Of a stretch of 64,000 bases of DNA, positions 39,016 through 49,333 are shown piece by piece (position 1 is the stretch's first letter; the number at the start of each line of letters is the position of its first letter). Made by a program: the position numbers and the translations under genes. The stretch is taken from positions 1 to 64,000 of the forward strand of contig JAPYRK010000010.1 of assembly GCA_029941115.1 (NCBI GenBank), given 5' to 3'. The notes beneath the pieces are model-generated. The model was not told the DNA's origin, searched no databases, and saw only the letters and a program-made list of their open reading frames with translations. This stretch comes from Dehalococcoidia bacterium (GTDB lineage: Bacteria > Chloroflexota > Dehalococcoidia > UBA2979).

Positions 39016-40245
39016 CTACGTCCGTTTTTCTGCCGAAATGATAAGTTCATCCGCGCCCCGCAGGAGCAGCGTACCACCTCTGGTAAGTCCGCCCTTTACC
39101 GGAGCGAACGAGCTGAATTCTTCGAAAAGTCGCTTGAATGCCGTGCCGGCCTCAACTCTCGCGAGTGGGGCCCCAAGACAAAAATGAATGCCGTGTCCAA
39201 ACGACAAATGGCGCTTCTCTCTCCGATCAAAAAGGAATGTGTCGGGATCGGAATATGCTGCCGGATCACGGTTCGCTGCTCCCAACATACACATCAATAC
39301 ATCACCTTTGGTTATCAGGGTTCCCAGCACCTCCGTATTCCGAGTAGCCACCCGTACGAGACCTTGAACGGGACTGTCGTAACGAAGAGTTTCCTCGATT
39401 ACGGACGGTATAATATCGGGATTCGCCGCGATTTGATCAAGCACGTTGTGGTGATTTAGCAGTGCCAGCATGCCGTTCCCAATTAGATTGGTGGTAGTTT
39501 CATTACCTGCCACGAGCAACAATATAGTGAACGATATTGCCTCATCTCGGGTGAGCTTGTCGCCGGTCTCATCCTGATCATTCACGATGGCAGAAATTAA
39601 ATCGTCTTCTGGGCTACTTAATCTTCTATCAATAATCTCGCCCAGATACGCCACCATTTCCTCGGTTACGACACGTCTGCGCTCTAATTCAGCGGGATCA
39701 GGTACCAGTTTCGTAGCGCTGGCTACTACCGTCGACCACTCTTTAAATCGTATGCGCTCACTTGGAGGTATTCCAAGCATCTCCGCGATAACTATGACCG
39801 GAAGAGGTTGAGCCAGGCCCGCCATAAGGTCAAATTTGGACTCAGTTCGTAACGATTCCACAAGTGAATCCGTTACATCAGTAATATGTTCGTCGAGTGC
39901 AGCGATACGCTTCGGTGTGAACGTTTTGTTCACAATAGCGCGCAGTCGGGTATGGTCCGGTGGGTCACTGGTCAGCACATTGCGCACATATCCCAGAGGA
40001 TTTGCCTCTGCTTCGCGCGCCACCTCATTTGCGATCGCACCGGACGCGTACCGTGGATTAGATGAAAAAATTTCAGGGTCTTTGAGAATCGCGCTACAAG
40101 CCTCGTGAGACGTAATCACCCAGGCATTAAGCGCGTCTGAGTGATATATCGGAGCATAATCTCTTGCACGCGCGTATTGTACATATGGATTGGATTTAAA
40201 TGATGGAATAAAGGGATTGAAAACTGCGGTCTGGCCCTGCGTCAT
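39016..40245 (-). CDS. Cytochrome P450
   Basis: LSFGHGIHFCLGAPLARVE heme motif; AGNETT I-helix; ETLR. Confidence 0.95.
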   Translation of the reverse strand: MTQGQTAVFNPFIPSFKSNPYVQYARARDYAPIYHSDALNAWVITSHEACSAILKDPEIFSSNPRYASGAIANEVAREAEANPLGYVRNVLTSDPPDHTRLRAIVNKTFTPKRIAALDEHITDVTDSLVESLRTESKFDLMAGLAQPLPVIVIAEMLGIPPSERIRFKEWSTVVASATKLVPDPAELERRRVVTEEMVAYLGEIIDRRLSSPEDDLISAIVNDQDETGDKLTRDEAISFTILLLVAGNETTTNLIGNGMLALLNHHNVLDQIAANPDIIPSVIEETLRYDSPVQGLVRVATRNTEVLGTLITKGDVLMCMLGAANRDPAAYSDPDTFLFDRREKRHLSFGHGIHFCLGAPLARVEAGTAFKRLFEEFSSFAPVKGGLTRGGTLLLRGADELIISAEKRT

Positions 40246-40269: not shown

Positions 40270-41532
40270 CTATAACGTCACTGATATCTCCAGAGCCTTG
40301 GGTCCGCGAGCAAACCAGTCCTCTGTTCGAGGAAGACTACCCGGCTCCATTTGATCAGATAGTCGAAACGAAGACGTTTTTTCTAACAATGACCTAAATA
40401 CTTCTTGTAGAGCAATTCGCGCCAATGGGGCGCCCACGCAGTAATGAGAGCCTCTGCCAAAAGCCAGCGATGGTGGAGCGTCACTGCCTGAATTGGATCG
40501 ATAACGCTCGACGTCAAATATGTCCGGATTTTCAAATACATCTGGATCTCGGTTGGTTCCACCAACCAACACCATGACGACGTCATTCTCCTTCATTTGG
40601 ACTCCTGAAAATAACAGATCCGAGGTTACCCACCGCACCAGAACTTGTTGCGGTGGGTCAAATCTCAATATTTCATCAACAGCCGAATCCAGAAGCTCGC
40701 TATTCTCTCTCAAAGCTGACTGTGCGGTATCGCTGATGGCAAAGGCCAAAATTCCGTTTGTGATGGCTTCTGCTGTAGTAGCGCTTCCGGCCTGAGCCAA
40801 ATCCACCACAAGAGCTAGTAGTTCTTCTGTTGATGGCAGGTCCTCCTCAGTGTTATCACTCGATATTTCTTCTGCACGTGCAATCGACGACAGAACAGAA
40901 TCACTCGCCACGCGCTCGTCATGCGAGACGGATTCCAAGAATTCGGTAAGTCTGACCTTGGCTTCTCGCGCCGCGCGCCGCTTTGCTACGGTCACATCAT
41001 TGAAATTAGTCTGCATTAAGGCAAACGTATCGCTCATCACCTGATCCCGATCATCTACATGAAGTCCGAGCTGGAGACTTAATATAGTCTCTGGCACCTT
41101 CACTGCGAGAGACTGCACTACCTCAACCACCCCACCAGAATGGGCACCTAACAGGTCATCGATCAGCATAGAAACTTCGATCCGTATATCGTTCCGTAGC
41201 TTCTCCAAAATACTGGGGGCAAATCCGCGCGCGACGATTCTTCGAAGACGGGTGTGCGAGAAGGAATCCAACTGAGCCAGTCGTTCAACATTGCCCAAGG
41301 CAGAGTTCTGCCGAACATATGCCAGACTCTCAGATACCTTGGAACTCGCACGGCTTGGATTAGAGGAAAATGTTTCATAGTCCTGCAATACTTCTAACCC
41401 GTACTGATATGAAGTGATGATCCAGGCGTTCACAGTTTCTGAATAATGAACTGGTTCATCACTCCGAAGTCTCGCCAAGGATGAATACGGATCCGCCATA
41501 TAGGACGGTCGAAATGGATTGAAGTACGCCAT
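40270..41532 (-). CDS. Cytochrome P450 (atypical I-helix)
   Basis: LAFGRGSHYCVGAPLARIAL heme motif; AGSATT in I-helix; EILR. Confidence 0.93.
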   Translation of the reverse strand: MAYFNPFRPSYMADPYSSLARLRSDEPVHYSETVNAWIITSYQYGLEVLQDYETFSSNPSRASSKVSESLAYVRQNSALGNVERLAQLDSFSHTRLRRIVARGFAPSILEKLRNDIRIEVSMLIDDLLGAHSGGVVEVVQSLAVKVPETILSLQLGLHVDDRDQVMSDTFALMQTNFNDVTVAKRRAAREAKVRLTEFLESVSHDERVASDSVLSSIARAEEISSDNTEEDLPSTEELLALVVDLAQAGSATTAEAITNGILAFAISDTAQSALRENSELLDSAVDEILRFDPPQQVLVRWVTSDLLFSGVQMKENDVVMVLVGGTNRDPDVFENPDIFDVERYRSNSGSDAPPSLAFGRGSHYCVGAPLARIALQEVFRSLLEKTSSFRLSDQMEPGSLPRTEDWFARGPKALEISVTL

Positions 41533-41632: not shown

Positions 41633-43039
41633 TTGTCCTCAAAAACTTATTCTGCAGAGACTACTGAGCTTGAGTCACCCTTTAGGGGTATAGACCTGTC
41701 GAAGCCCACTTATGGCAAGTTCCGAAGATTAATCCCTCTCGCCTATACCTTGCTCACAGTCTGGTTGAAGTGGAGGACGCTCCGAATTAAGAGACGCCTG
41801 TTTGGGGTCGAGCGGATGGAGGCAGCGACTCACAAATTCCATTCAGATGCGGCGATTTCTGTAGTTCGACTGGCCGTCAAGCAACAGGGCATGATAGTTA
41901 AAATGTGTCAATTTTTGGGTGCACGTGCTGATGTTCTTATGGAGGAATACGTCCGGACACTTTCGCTCGTGCATGATTCTATACCTCCAAGACCTTGGCT
42001 AGAAGTGAAAAATCGAATAGAAGAGGAACTGGGAGCGCCAGTCGAGAACCTATTTAAGTCCATCTCCGAAGAGCCAGTAGCCGCAGCCTCACTGGCACAG
42101 GTACATCGGGGGCGCACACATGATGGGCATGATGTGGCAGTGAAGATTCAGCATGTAGGCATAGACAAAATTGTCGAGTGGGATCTTGAGGCTGTTGACT
42201 TGCTCTCTAATATATGGAGTCGACTTGAAACTATCATCGATTTCCGCCCGATGGTTGCCGAAATGCGTAGAAATGCACCAGAAGAAATTGACTTCGTCCA
42301 TGAAGGACGTGCGGCCGAAGAAATAGCTAATCTTCTCTCAGACAGAAATGATACAACCGTCCCGAAAATTTTCTGGGAGCTTAGCTCATTACGAGTTCTC
42401 ACAATGGACTACATCGACGGCATAAAAATTACTGATACTAAAGCTTTGCGAGAGGCAGGTGTAAACCCGCCCGATGTCGCTGATGTGCTCATTGATTTGT
42501 ATAACAACATGATTCTCAAATACGGCATGTTTCATGCAGATCCGCACCCTGGAAACCTCTTCGTGTTACCGCCTAAAAGTGAAGACGAGTCTCTACGGAT
42601 CGGGCTGGTTGATTTTGGACTTACTAAGTCAATAGAGACTGATTTTCGAGAGCAGTTAATGGTCCTAACCAGCGCCATCATTGAGCAGCAATCAGATGTA
42701 ATTTCAACCACTATGACAGACATGGGATTCAGGACTCGTGAAGACGACCCAGAGACGTATACCGCGCTGGGAGAAGCATTCCTCGGAGATGTGCTTCGTT
42801 CAGGAAAAGCCTATGCTGATCAGGAAATGGTTGCAGAGGTAAATGAAAATCTTGGAAAGCTATTGCGAGCTAATCCTATTCTAGACCTCCCAGGTGACGT
42901 GATCCTGATTGCACGAGTCATGGGATTACTTTCCGGTCTCGGTCGGACTCTGGAATCAGAAACTGACCTACTCATCTCGGTACTACCATACCTTGATCCT
43001 GATAAGGACCAGGCTAGTGATGATGATCTCTTCGCCTAA
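41633..43039 (+). CDS. ABC1/UbiB-family (AarF) kinase-like protein
   Basis: EPVAAASLAQVHRGRTHDGHDVAVKIQHVGI; GMFHADPHPGNLFV; TTG start with GGAG upstream. Confidence 0.93.
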   Translation: MSSKTYSAETTELESPFRGIDLSKPTYGKFRRLIPLAYTLLTVWLKWRTLRIKRRLFGVERMEAATHKFHSDAAISVVRLAVKQQGMIVKMCQFLGARADVLMEEYVRTLSLVHDSIPPRPWLEVKNRIEEELGAPVENLFKSISEEPVAAASLAQVHRGRTHDGHDVAVKIQHVGIDKIVEWDLEAVDLLSNIWSRLETIIDFRPMVAEMRRNAPEEIDFVHEGRAAEEIANLLSDRNDTTVPKIFWELSSLRVLTMDYIDGIKITDTKALREAGVNPPDVADVLIDLYNNMILKYGMFHADPHPGNLFVLPPKSEDESLRIGLVDFGLTKSIETDFREQLMVLTSAIIEQQSDVISTTMTDMGFRTREDDPETYTALGEAFLGDVLRSGKAYADQEMVAEVNENLGKLLRANPILDLPGDVILIARVMGLLSGLGRTLESETDLLISVLPYLDPDKDQASDDDLFA

Positions 43040-43117
43040 CCAATAGAATATCGAGTTAAGTTTGCTCGAATCAATTCACTTACTCTATCGGGTTCTTATC
43101 AATTAAGCTTGCATGTA

Positions 43118-43164
43118 TTCATTTTATACGTTATTGTTCATTTAAATGAATGATAATTCATTTT
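43118..43164. promoter_or_regulatory. Three TTCATTT repeats at 19/20-bp spacing with central 14-bp palindrome
   Basis: TTCATTTT at 43118, TTCATTTAAATGAA palindrome at 43137-43150, TTCATTTT at 43157; upstream of microprotein A. Confidence 0.45.
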
Positions 43165-43189
43165 GTCGGGCAATAGATAGGAGTCTAAA

Positions 43190-43324
43190 GTGATAACCCC
43201 GAAAGAGTACATTAATGGCGTGTTGAGCAAAGGTCGTAAGACCGGACCTCTCTTTGAAGAAGCCAAGAAGGATTACCGAAGATGGCTTCGCGAAGAAAAC
43301 AGCAACTGGCGCTGTACTTTATAA
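43190..43324 (+). CDS. Microprotein A (44 aa, unknown): MITPKEYINGVLSKGRKTGPLFEEAKKDYRRWLREENSNWRCTL
   Basis: GTG start with AGGAG upstream; aligns without gaps to microprotein B; below ORF-track cutoff. Confidence 0.65.
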   Translation: MITPKEYINGVLSKGRKTGPLFEEAKKDYRRWLREENSNWRCTL

Positions 43325-43357
43325 GTACTAACAGCCATAAATGTCAGGAGTAATAAT

Positions 43358-43480
43358 ATGAAACTTACGAATTACGTCAGCTACATTACGCGAAAAAATC
43401 GCGGTGTCGCGCCAAACTATGATGAGGCTAAAAAGGATTTTTTAGCGATGATACGTAGACGCAATATAAGTCACCTTTAA
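43358..43480 (+). CDS. Microprotein B (40 aa, unknown): MKLTNYVSYITRKNRGVAPNYDEAKKDFLAMIRRRNISHL
   Basis: ATG start with AGGAG upstream; shares Y..K.R...P..[FY][DE]EAKKD[FY] with microprotein A. Confidence 0.65.
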   Translation: MKLTNYVSYITRKNRGVAPNYDEAKKDFLAMIRRRNISHL

Positions 43481-43524: not shown

Positions 43525-43582
43525 TTTCCTTACTTTGGGCTAACCTACTCGCGTAAGTATCCCTCAGTCCAAAGTAAGGAAA
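43525..43582 (+). promoter_or_regulatory. 14-bp perfect inverted repeat (TTTCCTTACTTTGG...CCAAAGTAAGGAAA, 30-nt spacer) in the TetR leader
   Basis: Arms 43525-43538 and 43569-43582; right arm contains the AAGGAA ribosome-binding region 10 nt before the ATG. Confidence 0.6.
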
Positions 43583-43592
43583 TTCAATAAAT

Positions 43593-44255
43593 ATGCCACG
43601 CAGGCCCGAGCGATACCTAGAAGAACGAAAACAAGACATCATTCGGGCAGCGAAGCAGATGTTCGTGCAGCAGGGTTATGCATCCACAACAATTAGCCAG
43701 ATAGCAACTGAAGCCGAGATGGCAACCGGTACGCTTTATCGGTACTTTAAGAGCAAAGACGAACTAATTTGGGCCGTTTCACACGAACATATCGAAGAAG
43801 AACTTCAAGCCTTTACGACTTTAGAAAAAGAATCAACATCTGCCGGAGATCAGCTTCTGGAGATTTTATTGAAACCGTATCAAAATACTGATGTCGACCA
43901 GAGCCGACAAGATGCGATTATCAGCCTGGAATCGACCTTGGCTGCTTTGAGAAGCGATGGACTTAAAGAAAAAGTTGCGACAGATATTTCCATGTCGATC
44001 GACGCGTTAACCGAACTAATCCAAAAAGCCCAAGCACAAGGTGAAGTAAACCCTCAATTCAGCCCGTCCGCACTTTCAGCATTGCTCCATGGCACTGCAA
44101 GCGGTTTGGCAAGTCTCAGGCCTCTACTGTCTGAAAATTCGACCTATATCGTGGCCGCACAAGATCTTCTAATTAAACTGGTGGAATCACTCTATAGTCC
44201 TTCTCTTGCGAAACGTTCACAGGATAAAAAAAGCATGCCATCAACACCTGAATGA
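43593..44255 (+). CDS. TetR-family transcriptional regulator
   Basis: IIRAAKQMFVQQGYASTTISQIATEAEMATGTLYRYFKSKDELIWAV HTH. Confidence 0.95.
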   Translation: MPRRPERYLEERKQDIIRAAKQMFVQQGYASTTISQIATEAEMATGTLYRYFKSKDELIWAVSHEHIEEELQAFTTLEKESTSAGDQLLEILLKPYQNTDVDQSRQDAIISLESTLAALRSDGLKEKVATDISMSIDALTELIQKAQAQGEVNPQFSPSALSALLHGTASGLASLRPLLSENSTYIVAAQDLLIKLVESLYSPSLAKRSQDKKSMPSTPE

Positions 44256-44315: not shown

Positions 44316-47300
44316 ATGACCACAAGCCACACCTCGCATCGATCGGTAATTTCTGGAGAAGGCGCTCCAACGCATTCCTCCGTCCAAAATGCGCTGAATC
44401 TACTGGAAGGGCCAGACCATCTTCTTCAACAGATTGAGGTGGCTCTAGTAAGCGCACTTGCCGGGGGCGCAGAAGATGTTGATACATCCAGAGCTCGAAG
44501 ACTTCTCTACGCCACAGACGCATCGATCTATGAAATGGAGCCGGTTGCGGTTACTTTCCCTCGAGACACCAGCGATGTTCAAGCAATCGTGCAAGTCGCG
44601 AATACCTTCGGTGTTCCCATTCTTCCAAGAGGAGCCGGTACGAGTTTGGCGGGGCAAGGTGTCAACCATGCAATAGTGATTGACTTCACTCGCTACATGA
44701 ATCAGGTATTGGAGATAGATCCGTCTTCGGTGACCGCACGTGTCCAGCCAGGACTAGTAGTTGACGCACTCAATAAACAAGCCAAAAGGCACCAACTCAT
44801 GTACCCCGTGGACCCGTCCACCAGAAATAGAGCAACTATAGGTGGTGGTATTGGCAACAATTCATGTGGTGCGCACTCGCTCAGACACGGAAAAACGAGT
44901 GACCAGTTAATTTCAGTCACCGTCGTACTCAATGACGGAAGTATTATCCGCACCAAAAATGTCTCGGGTTCAGAATTAGAGGAAAAATTAGACGGCGACG
45001 CACGTGAATCAGAGTTGTACCGATCTATTCGCGAGATTGCGCAATCGCGACAAGCAGAAATAGAGGCATACTTCCCAAAGATACCTAGGCGTGTATCTGG
45101 TTATAACCTTGACACTGTACTTACATACGACGATGGTCGTGGTGAAAGTATGGACATCGGTCAAATGATTGTGGGCAGTGAGGGAACTCTAGGAATTGTC
45201 ACGGAGGCGACTCTCAAGCTTGCCCCACTTGCTGTTAAAACGGGGATAATTGCGCTTCATTTCGAATCTATAGAAGATGCGTGCCGAGCAGCTCCTATTG
45301 CGGTCACACACGACCCCGCAGCGGTCGAACTAGTTGATAGAACAATCATCGAACGCTGTCGCGAAAGCTTTAGCTATAAATCTCTAATTGAGTTCGTAAT
45401 AGGTACTCCAGGAGGCCTGCTATTGGTCGAAGTAGATGGAGAAACTGAGCAAGAAGTCATCGAAAAACTAAATGCACTAAGTAAAGACTTCAGGGGTCGT
45501 GGCCTCACTCAAGATATGGTTGTTACCACTAACTCAGGAGAACAAGCTCGAATGTGGCGAATGAGAGAAGCCGGCCTCGGACTGTTAATGTCCGTGCGGG
45601 GAGATGCAAAACCAGTAGCCTTCGTTGAAGATGGGGCCGTTGAACCTGAATTTTTAGGAGATTACGTCGCTCGATTCGAGGAAATAGTACAACGTTATGG
45701 ACTACCCACCGCGTACTATGGCCACGCTGGTGCAGGATGCCTACACATCAGACCCATGATCAATCTCAAAGAATTAGATGGCCCCGAAAACGCTGAAATT
45801 TTGGCTCAAGAAATCGCCGATTTAATTCTGGAATTTGGAGGCTCACTCAGCGGTGAGCACGGTGACGGGATAGTACGAGGTGCTTTTACGGAGCGTATGT
45901 TTGGACCCGCCTTGGTGGATAGTTTCCGTGATGTCAAATTAGCATTTGATCCGGACTCATTAATGAACCCAGGGAAAATTATTGATACCCCAAGGTTCAA
46001 TGACAATCTGCGACTTTCACCAAAAACCGCCAGCCTCACCCCACCCACGTTTTTAAATTGGGAGGAATGGGGTGGCATTGCACGGGCCGCCGAACAATGT
46101 AATGGGCAAGGAGCATGCCTAAAGGATGTTGGCACGATGTGCCCGTCCTTCATGGTCACGAAAGATGAAGAACACTCCACACGAGGTCGAGCCAATTTAC
46201 TCCGCCAAGTGCTGAATCAGTCGCTGCCACCGGAAGAGCTCACGGGGGATCGAATCCACGATGCACTTGACCTCTGCGTGGAATGCAAGGCATGTAAGAA
46301 CGAATGTCCTTCGGCCGTTGATATGGCTCTCCTGAAGTCAGAGGTACTCGCCCTACGCCACGCAGAACAAGGTGTGCCACTCAGGGATAGAATTTTTGCT
46401 GGTATCGCGAGAGGCGCCAAACTAAATCAGTTGCTAGGTATCAGATCGTTGACAAACTGCGTAAGCCGGATCGGTTTTGTGAAGGTACTGCTTGACCAAT
46501 TTCTCGGAATTCATAAGTCGAGACCGCTTCCTGAATTCGCGCCAATCTCGTTCGTAGAATGGTTTCAAAAAAACCATAGTGTCGGACGCGCAACCACAAA
46601 TGGAACGATCGTACTCTTTGTCGATACGTTTACAAATTATTTTCAGCCTCAGATTGGTAAAGCAGCGGTAATGGTGTTAGAAGCCTTAGGTTACGCCGTT
46701 CAGATAACACAACAAAATGAATGCTGCGGAAGACCTATGATCTCAAAAGGATTACTGGGTGACGCTCGGAATGCCGCTGCTAAGAACTTAAAAAGCTTGG
46801 AAAGTTTTATCGAAGCCGGCATTCCAATTGTAGGCTTAGAGCCATCCTGCTTGCTGACCTTTCGGGACGAATATCCGCTGTTGCTGCACAACTCGCCTCC
46901 CCTTGCAAAACTTGCGGATGCTGCAGCAAAGCAGTCGTTTCTTATCGAAGAATTTATCACTCGCTGTGCCATTGAAAACGAAAGCTCGGTTCGAAGTATT
47001 TTTCAAGGTGGAACGAGCGTTTCCATTCATATCCACTGCCATGAGAAAGCATTGGTTGGTACGGAACAGGCCCTTAAAGTCTTGGATCTCGCCAACATCC
47101 CAGCAAATTTGATTGATTCGGCGTGTTGTGGCATGGCCGGCTCATTTGGTTTTGAAACAGAACACTATGAGGTCTCCCGGGCAATGGCAGAACGAACATT
47201 GATCCCCGCAATTCGTGAAATGCCTGAGTCCGAGCGACTACTAATCACCGGCACTTCCTGCCGACAGCAGCTAGATCATTTCAGCTCAAAAACACCAATA

Positions 47301-47342
47301 CATCTAGTCGAAGCATTAGCTGAATCGTTAATAAATAAATAG
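44316..47342 (+). CDS. FAD-binding oxidase / 4Fe-4S / CCG-domain fusion (GlcD-GlcF-like, D-lactate or 2-hydroxyacid dehydrogenase type)
   Basis: PRGAGTSLAGQGVN, GGGIGNNSCGAHS, CVECKACKNECPSAVDMA, CCGRPMISKG, CCGMAGSFGFE. Confidence 0.93.
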   Translation: MTTSHTSHRSVISGEGAPTHSSVQNALNLLEGPDHLLQQIEVALVSALAGGAEDVDTSRARRLLYATDASIYEMEPVAVTFPRDTSDVQAIVQVANTFGVPILPRGAGTSLAGQGVNHAIVIDFTRYMNQVLEIDPSSVTARVQPGLVVDALNKQAKRHQLMYPVDPSTRNRATIGGGIGNNSCGAHSLRHGKTSDQLISVTVVLNDGSIIRTKNVSGSELEEKLDGDARESELYRSIREIAQSRQAEIEAYFPKIPRRVSGYNLDTVLTYDDGRGESMDIGQMIVGSEGTLGIVTEATLKLAPLAVKTGIIALHFESIEDACRAAPIAVTHDPAAVELVDRTIIERCRESFSYKSLIEFVIGTPGGLLLVEVDGETEQEVIEKLNALSKDFRGRGLTQDMVVTTNSGEQARMWRMREAGLGLLMSVRGDAKPVAFVEDGAVEPEFLGDYVARFEEIVQRYGLPTAYYGHAGAGCLHIRPMINLKELDGPENAEILAQEIADLILEFGGSLSGEHGDGIVRGAFTERMFGPALVDSFRDVKLAFDPDSLMNPGKIIDTPRFNDNLRLSPKTASLTPPTFLNWEEWGGIARAAEQCNGQGACLKDVGTMCPSFMVTKDEEHSTRGRANLLRQVLNQSLPPEELTGDRIHDALDLCVECKACKNECPSAVDMALLKSEVLALRHAEQGVPLRDRIFAGIARGAKLNQLLGIRSLTNCVSRIGFVKVLLDQFLGIHKSRPLPEFAPISFVEWFQKNHSVGRATTNGTIVLFVDTFTNYFQPQIGKAAVMVLEALGYAVQITQQNECCGRPMISKGLLGDARNAAAKNLKSLESFIEAGIPIVGLEPSCLLTFRDEYPLLLHNSPPLAKLADAAAKQSFLIEEFITRCAIENESSVRSIFQGGTSVSIHIHCHEKALVGTEQALKVLDLANIPANLIDSACCGMAGSFGFETEHYEVSRAMAERTLIPAIREMPESERLLITGTSCRQQLDHFSSKTPIHLVEALAESLINK

Positions 47343-47441: not shown

Positions 47442-48137
47442 ATGTCGAAACATCATTACAGGAAACAGAAAATCGCAGTCCTCGGACTCGGAAGATTTGG
47501 GTCTACGCTCGCTCGTGACCTCCAAGCAATGGGACACGAAGTCATTGGCATCGATCACAATAGCAACACTATTAAATCGCTCTCGGCAGAGTTATTTCAT
47601 ATTGCCGAAGCCGAGGCATCTGACGCTGACGCTCTAAAATTTTTAGGAATTCCTCACTGTGACGCTGCTGTAGTAGCATTTTCCGCGCAAGATCTCGAAA
47701 CGAGTATTCTCGCTACGCTCACGCTGAAACAAGAGATGCAAATACCCCGAGTGATAGCAAAGGCGGCAAACGCGAGACATGGTGAAATCCTTGAACGGGT
47801 CGGTGCTGATGAAATCAAGTATCCGGAAAGAGAATCAGGCCGCCACCTCGCTCTCGCCTGGTCAGATCAGGGGCATGAAGCTGATAACCTTGAGATAAGC
47901 AATCAGTATCTGATTACAAGAATCAAAGCCCCCTCAAAGTTACATACTGAAACATTCGCGAGTATTAGAAACCAATACCCTAATCTTGACTTTATTATGT
48001 GGATGGACGGTGAAGGCGCATTAACTTTGACGCCATCTGATAATGACATCCTTCGAAAGAATCATCTACTCGTTATCGGAGGAAATCCCAACGAAATTGA
48101 GGACTTCCTAGATGCCGTGCGTGAAGAATCCACCTAG
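47442..48137 (+). CDS. RCK/TrkA-type NAD-binding K+ transport regulator
   Basis: KIAVLGLGRFGSTLARDLQAMGHEVIGIDHN; LTLKQEMQIPRVIAKAANARHGEILERVGADEIKYPE. Confidence 0.93.
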   Translation: MSKHHYRKQKIAVLGLGRFGSTLARDLQAMGHEVIGIDHNSNTIKSLSAELFHIAEAEASDADALKFLGIPHCDAAVVAFSAQDLETSILATLTLKQEMQIPRVIAKAANARHGEILERVGADEIKYPERESGRHLALAWSDQGHEADNLEISNQYLITRIKAPSKLHTETFASIRNQYPNLDFIMWMDGEGALTLTPSDNDILRKNHLLVIGGNPNEIEDFLDAVREEST

Positions 48138-49333
48138 ACTTTCAGATAGAGCGATTTGAAGCCGCGAAGCGTCATAGTGCCACCCCATTCAATCTTTTGG
48201 ATCAGTGGTGGAGTGTCGGTTACTGATAGCATCGCCAGAATAGCCTGTTCTGCTAAACCCATCGCCGCTCCCGCACCAATACAGTGGTGCTCGCCAGAGC
48301 CAAACTGAAGTTGACCACGGAATGAACGATCGAGCAAAAATTCGTCTGGTCGTTCAAATCGTTCAGGGTCTCTGCCAGCCGCCGTAACGACCGCCAATAC
48401 TCCCTCTCCTGGCTTAATAGTGCGATTACCCAAGCTCGTAGTCTCGGTCGCAAAGCGAGGAATAAACTGGGTCGGCCCCTGCCAACGCAAGGCTTCAATA
48501 ACTGCCAAGGCCGTCAATTCAGGCTGTACCTTGAGTCGCTCGAATAGATCGGGAGTTATAGCTAGAATCCAGAGCATTAAGCCTATCAAAAACGCGGTTG
48601 CATTATTCCCAGCAATTGATAAATCAAATAGAAGTTTTGCTGCATCTTCCTCTGATATGCTGCCTACTTCTATGGCATCTCGTAATAACGCAATAGCCCC
48701 ATTTGGAGCAGAATTAGTTGAAACCGCATGCTTGCAAACATCGCGCAATGCGGCCTGCGCTCGAACGCCCTGTGAGCGTACAATCGGACCGGCGCCGCTA
48801 TGTGCACGCCAAGCTTGAATTGTTGTACCCAATGACTCGTAGTTAGATCGTTCGCCGGGAGATGTACCAAGTAACTCATACACAGTCTCGACGACCGCCT
48901 GATTTGCAATTCCAGACATTGCCTCGAACGATTCGCCTTGAGCTGCGCTCACGGCACCGTGTGTCCATTTCCAAGCAATTTCCTTCACTATCTGTCCGTA
49001 ATGATTCACATTATAAGCGGGTGACGCCAACGCTCGTTGATGCTTATGCTCCTCCAGGCCAGTTCGAATAAACGGAACATCACCCTGCCGATTACCGTCG
49101 AGTGTTCCGGTCAATTGTCTTGCTAAAATACTCCGGTTGTGCCGAATCGCAGCGTTTGCATCTGAGGAGAAAACAGAAGGTTGCTTTAATACCGTGTCGC
49201 AGTCTTCGTATTTAGTCAATACCCAGGCCTCAAACTTTGAATCCCAATGGACTGGATCTTCTTTACGTAGGCGTGCTAAAGCCGGATAAGGGTTTTTCAG
49301 ATACGATGGGCGGTCAGGTTTCCAGTCGACCAT
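48134..49333 (-). CDS. Cytochrome P450 (atypical I-helix)
   Basis: LQFGSGEHHCIGAGAAMG heme motif; AGNNAT in I-helix; EALR. Confidence 0.93.
   Translation of the reverse strand: MVDWKPDRPSYLKNPYPALARLRKEDPVHWDSKFEAWVLTKYEDCDTVLKQPSVFSSDANAAIRHNRSILARQLTGTLDGNRQGDVPFIRTGLEEHKHQRALASPAYNVNHYGQIVKEIAWKWTHGAVSAAQGESFEAMSGIANQAVVETVYELLGTSPGERSNYESLGTTIQAWRAHSGAGPIVRSQGVRAQAALRDVCKHAVSTNSAPNGAIALLRDAIEVGSISEEDAAKLLFDLSIAGNNATAFLIGLMLWILAITPDLFERLKVQPELTALAVIEALRWQGPTQFIPRFATETTSLGNRTIKPGEGVLAVVTAAGRDPERFERPDEFLLDRSFRGQLQFGSGEHHCIGAGAAMGLAEQAILAMLSVTDTPPLIQKIEWGGTMTLRGFKSLYLKV

Follow-up and report, generated by a model that had tools for sequence, protein, structure and literature searches.

A tandem microprotein pair of a previously unnamed Chloroflexota family in a likely TetR-controlled unit

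The closest described counterparts of the locus analyzed here are units autoregulated by TetR-family repressors, genes behind the c-di-AMP riboswitch (RF00379, ydaO/yuaA), and the TPR repeat (PF07719), a 34-residue helix hairpin. As in TetR-autoregulated units, the window (the whole stretch of DNA that was analyzed, 64,000 nucleotides from a Dehalococcoidia bacterium) has a same-strand tetR downstream and a palindrome overlapping the promoter, and its relatives share a near-perfect promoter palindrome conserved across genomes, with an MMPL transporter gene downstream. It departs from such units in that the first cistron encodes a 38-44 aa protein of no known family and, in the window, is duplicated while the MMPL gene is missing. 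In three relatives, the microprotein gene is the first gene behind a full-length c-di-AMP aptamer and, unlike other RF00379 targets, it encodes a protein of roughly 50-60 aa. The microproteins resemble the TPR repeat in length, in the shape of a helix-turn-helix hairpin, and in an EA..DY-like second helix, but they form no repeat array and are not members by sequence. We found no description of the microproteins and no named family for them in the literature. A global microbiome small-ORF catalogue exists (PMC11364881), and the family may sit in it as anonymous clusters.

Two tandem microproteins and their family

A sequence-only reading of the window had proposed that two short, homologous ORFs, each with an AGGAG ribosome-binding site, lie between a UbiB-like gene and tetR. 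Their coordinates, peptides, and Shine-Dalgarno (SD) motifs are present as described:

41633..43039, plus strand: UbiB/ABC1-type atypical kinase-like gene (Pfam ABC1, 4e-73), conserved upstream neighbor
43190-43324, plus strand: microprotein 1 (ORF1), 44 aa, GTG start, SD AGGAG at 43179-43183
43358-43480, plus strand: microprotein 2 (ORF2), 40 aa, ATG start, SD AGGAG at 43346-43350
43593..44255, plus strand: TetR-family regulator gene (Pfam TetR_N, 4.1e-17), conserved downstream neighbor

In both ORFs, six to seven bases separate AGGAG from the start codon. Their homology also held: the peptides align without gaps, with 11 identities over 31 columns (about 36 positions had been counted before), a score matched by 0 of 20,000 shuffles, and the codons of the shared EAKKD block differ as claimed (GAA GCC AAG AAG GAT in ORF1 versus GAG GCT AAA AAG GAT in ORF2). 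A hidden Markov model (HMM) built without the window sequences still detects ORF1 (E 3.5e-7) and ORF2 (E 6.2e-5), which removes the circularity, and finds no further family members in the 64-kb window. Both window copies are divergent, with I/V where 91% of the family has Tyr and L/N at a site occupied by Thr or Ser in most members. FastTree groups ORF1 with ORF2 (support 0.81, in a small tree), which argues for duplication in place; such short proteins leave the rest of the tree poorly resolved. Judged by their sequences, ORF1 and ORF2 arose by tandem duplication and belong to a previously unnamed family of Chloroflexota microproteins, and tandem pairs also occur in four other genomes (G035, G013, G028, and G465).

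The first search, with each window peptide alone against 149 related genomes, gave weak matches only. Most of the better ones came from the window's own family; they proved to be short ORFs that carry the same motif and a ribosome-binding site. A profile made from them places members in 30 of the 44 genomes of that family, which belongs to class Dehalococcoidia, a few of the weakest matches being doubtful. The relatives number about 58 and are 38-61 aa long; an SD-like motif precedes 57 of 58 members, which is supportive only, since the choice of start codon partly used that motif. Absence of EAKKD[FY] homologs from related genomes had been named as grounds for rejecting the pair, and a general form of the motif, [FY]Y-x2-I-x6-8-P-[TS]-x2-EA-x2-D, is present in dozens of genomes. 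Members were also found in other families of class Dehalococcoidia (G044, G064, and G097) and in distant Chloroflexota families, where they often carry an N-terminal extension of 10-20 residues. Besides the window's own family, those with members are f2, f22, f25, f27, f128, f158, and the distant f138. In f138, they occur in 17 of 21 genomes, including 14 of the 14 good-quality ones; this family contains near-complete genomes in few contigs and may hold cultivable thermophiles. In a sample of 400 genomes from the phylum, matches at E 0.001 were obtained in 17, of which a few are weak and doubtful; the family is therefore widespread but patchy. Those named loci in which the gene context matches that of the window come from Chloroflexi/Dehalococcoidia metagenome-assembled genomes.

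No orthologs of ORF1 or ORF2 were found in the three sister species of the same genus, whose genomes either do not contain the locus or are not complete enough, so selection was measured on relatives rather than on the window copies. In most close pairs of relatives, pN/pS is 0.17-0.5, with two pairs near 1, and it is 0.20-0.32 among UbiB/TetR-linked copies. The selection on protein that had been read from the synonymous EAKKD codons is thus seen in the relatives, where the family is under purifying selection (pN/pS mostly 0.2-0.5), and amino acid conservation spans the whole protein length. The microprotein family is almost certainly real. Small genes are easily overlooked in this phylum, which thereby gains a protein family that is under selection and has no name.

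AlphaFold2 predicts two helices in each protein (residues 4-13 and 22-42 in ORF1, 3-13 and 21-39 in ORF2) at moderate confidence (pLDDT 70.8 and 74.7, respectively; pTM ~0.4; six-sequence alignment). We read both, with moderate confidence, as a predicted helix-loop-helix hairpin. In the family, the turn between the two helices holds an invariant proline, and most members are basic (52 of 57 with net positive charge; median pI 9.9). The statement that the shared motif belongs to no recognized family was borne out, with nothing matching in Pfam, NCBIfam, PHROGs, PADLOC, or PDB; a fold search of the ORF1 model against PDB returned one match, which is meaningless. Four candidates were rejected. 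Membership of the TPR repeat reached a best E of 0.045 in 2 of 17 members only, with no repeat array. NF038404 (permease prefix domain 2) scored 18.5 bits in one member only, against a curated cut-off of 35 bits. The Xer/tyrosine recombinase core-binding domain (PF02899), prompted by a T-x6-D spacing, gave an hhalign probability of ~1%. Finally, matches to Sinorhizobium plasmids (E 0.7), which for the most part fall outside annotated genes, were judged to be chance.

Promoter, palindrome, and hairpins at UbiB/TetR loci

Related loci were gathered with the UbiB C terminus as query. In five genomes (the window plus L092, L096, L101, and L104), the order is UbiB, microprotein, TetR, and usually MMPL (setting A). 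In the relatives, a TTGAC-N17-CATNAT promoter overlaps the palindrome TGAACGTTCATTCANNNGAATGAACG between UbiB and the microprotein, which is the first cistron behind this conserved promoter. The corresponding region of the window contains the following elements:

43109..43137, plus strand: putative promoter read from the sequence, TTGCAT (43109-43114), 17-nt spacer, TATTGT (43132-43137)
43131..43156, no strand assigned: putative TetR operator, 26-bp inverted repeat TTATTGTTCATTTAAATGAATGATAA
43482..43512, plus strand: hairpin directly after microprotein 2 (-13.1 kcal/mol, z -5.0; inverted repeat I4)
43525..43582, plus strand: 17-bp stem-loop, 94% paired (-26.4 kcal/mol, z -6.4), whose 3' arm holds the tetR SD

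The window promoter, which a generic promoter scan of the window did not list, matches that of the other UbiB/TetR loci in position and spacing. The window palindrome is placed like the conserved palindrome of the relatives and has no second occurrence anywhere in the genome when up to 3 mismatches are allowed. Two loci (L160 and L167) keep UbiB, the promoter, the TGAACGTTCATTCANNNGAATGAACG palindrome, and TetR, with tetR directly behind, and have no microprotein, which indicates that the microprotein is dispensable to the UbiB/TetR unit. Promoter and palindrome are conserved ahead of the microprotein, or of tetR where the microprotein is absent. From this layout, we consider that the window pair probably belongs to a TetR-autoregulated unit.

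The hairpin after microprotein 2 is a possible 3' end or mRNA stabilizer. The stem-loop that follows buries the tetR SD, which suggests translational control of tetR. An alternative is that the small ORFs are leader peptides, whose sole role is that their translation controls that of the downstream tetR. This would suit the strong hairpin over the tetR SD in the window, and also three relatives (L161-L163) in which tetR starts 2-3 bases past the microprotein stop codon with no SD of its own, i.e., is coupled. However, the window tetR, although in the same direction as ORF2 and the next gene downstream, lies 112 nt beyond it; many relatives have opposite-strand genes downstream (YlxP and ScpB) rather than a same-strand gene; and amino acids are conserved along the whole length under purifying selection. 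We consider leader peptides unlikely.

Neighborhoods and control elements across the family

Two further settings are common. In setting B, which occurs in many genera and also in family f25 (L181), a RimO/MiaB-like radical-SAM gene is followed by the microprotein and then by opposite-strand YlxP (DUF503) and ScpB genes, or by MurJ. In setting C, the microprotein lies near a methyltransferase gene, a class V aminotransferase-like gene, and YibE/F. Settings A, B, and C are the three main ones in the window's family; distant families show other neighbors, and no neighbor gene is constant across the microprotein family. Several large ORFs beside relatives (clusters c0 and c6-c8) resemble antisense artifacts and were ignored.

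These neighborhoods bear on the idea that the microprotein is an accessory subunit specific to the adjoining UbiB kinase, TetR, or MMPL transporter. The order UbiB-microprotein-TetR-MMPL is indeed kept in four relatives, yet no MMPL gene follows tetR in the window, most family members are located elsewhere, and 15 of 19 named UbiB loci have no microprotein. A dedicated accessory subunit is therefore improbable.

Control elements also differ among members. The promoter in setting B is preceded by GTGATTGTGNNCACAATCAC, a palindrome of 20 bp. Of 44 genomes, 20 carry one or two copies, which lie mostly at the microprotein, and the palindrome hardly occurs outside microprotein promoters; following it in G012 uncovered a diverged microprotein missed by the profile. 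Members in f138 share GATATCRCGATATYGTGATATC-like palindromes. We infer that such palindromes could be operators of particular regulators. Extra copies of GTGATTGTGNNCACAATCAC were seen away from microproteins in L218 (near 7718) and L214 (near 8004), and the genes there are possibly under the same regulator. In the L086 8949-9068 and L102 9136-9255 leaders, an ATATACC-containing palindrome, ATATACCC-N5-GGGTATAT in L086, lies near the promoter of one tandem copy and differs from the palindrome of the other copy.

A c-di-AMP riboswitch lies just upstream of microproteins in three genera, all outside the window's family (G465, 1.6e-21; G044, 4.8e-22; and G069, 9e-20), and the riboswitches were mapped as follows:

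L151, 856-984: c-di-AMP riboswitch upstream of microprotein gene
L179, 3087-3217: c-di-AMP riboswitch upstream of microprotein gene
L189, 7691-7812: c-di-AMP riboswitch upstream of microprotein gene

An Rfam search of the window found no c-di-AMP riboswitch at the two copies there, nor any other Rfam element. A weak T-box-like leader match was noted in one relative (L008 59-411, minus strand; E 0.04). A hairpin is present in the leaders of most other members in the window's family (A5 alignment, 5' leaders, 30 members). It covaries well beyond the level of shuffled and slid controls and has a conserved GGG-loop-GGCC core immediately ahead of the SD. Rfam returned no match to it in those members that were searched, and it was not seen in the window; it is a possible new cis-regulatory RNA.

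A putative regulated effector as the best explanation

The family and the operon-like arrangement in the window are well supported, and TetR control is likely. The best reading of the microprotein is a small, mostly basic, two-helix protein that would be the regulated output of several inputs, and its usual site downstream of a recognizable or putative on/off switch suggests a small stress-type effector. Our overall best explanation, a duplicated pair of shared-target effectors in a TetR-controlled unit, stands at about an even chance of being right. The window unit would be microprotein-microprotein-tetR, with ORF1 and ORF2 as its first two cistrons. TetR would bind the putative operator palindrome and repress its own unit; when the TetR ligand appears, the microproteins would be made quickly, whereas tetR output may stay low during induction since a strong hairpin encloses its ribosome-binding site. 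At the weakest step, the microprotein would be a soluble effector, shaped as a helix hairpin, and would bind a common core component; the ribosome, RNA polymerase, a protease, nucleic acid, or a membrane surface are candidates. Since the control elements of the relatives differ greatly and their neighbors are unrelated, the shared element would be the protein and not a pathway partner. We hold the shared-target effector as such tentatively, at somewhat less than an even chance. More doubtful is a Chloroflexota-wide output module, with one microprotein type, many sensory inputs, and one core machine (e.g., ribosome or RNA polymerase), in which TetR-type repressors, c-di-AMP riboswitches, lineage-specific palindromes, and the covarying leader hairpin would have been acquired independently as inputs. 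If the copies do share one target, many signals would converge on a single microprotein fold as their common output. Because one can switch the inputs (TetR ligand, c-di-AMP, and other palindromes), function is testable without knowing the target.

Three other origins were weighed against the regulated effector. A phage- or defense-derived small protein, of toxin-antitoxin or anti-phage type, would be small, multi-copy, tandem, and patchily present, as these proteins are, but PHROG and PADLOC models gave no convincing match to the family, and no member was found in phage records or viral contigs. No UbiB C terminus was found in viral contigs either. A stable location of housekeeping character, next to RimO-like and ScpB genes, likewise speaks against such an origin, which we regard as very unlikely. 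That the pair are RiPP precursors modified by adjoining cytochrome P450s is highly improbable: the genes are short and tandem, with P450 genes close to the window locus, L092, and L101, but the P450 genes are on the opposite strand and missing from the RimO, IleRS, methyltransferase, and riboswitch loci, conservation falls in the helical middle with no conserved C-terminal core, and no exporter or protease was found as a constant neighbor. Chance ORFs in an intergenic region, near whose random-sequence expectation the lengths do fall, are already refuted by the independent HMM detection, alongside relatives across families, SDs, purifying selection, and synteny, and have a negligible probability. 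The P450 genes near the window locus are three in number (39016-40245, 40270-41532, and 48134-49333, all minus strand), and a FAD-linked oxidase/iron-sulfur fusion of 1008 aa (44316-47342) also lies nearby.
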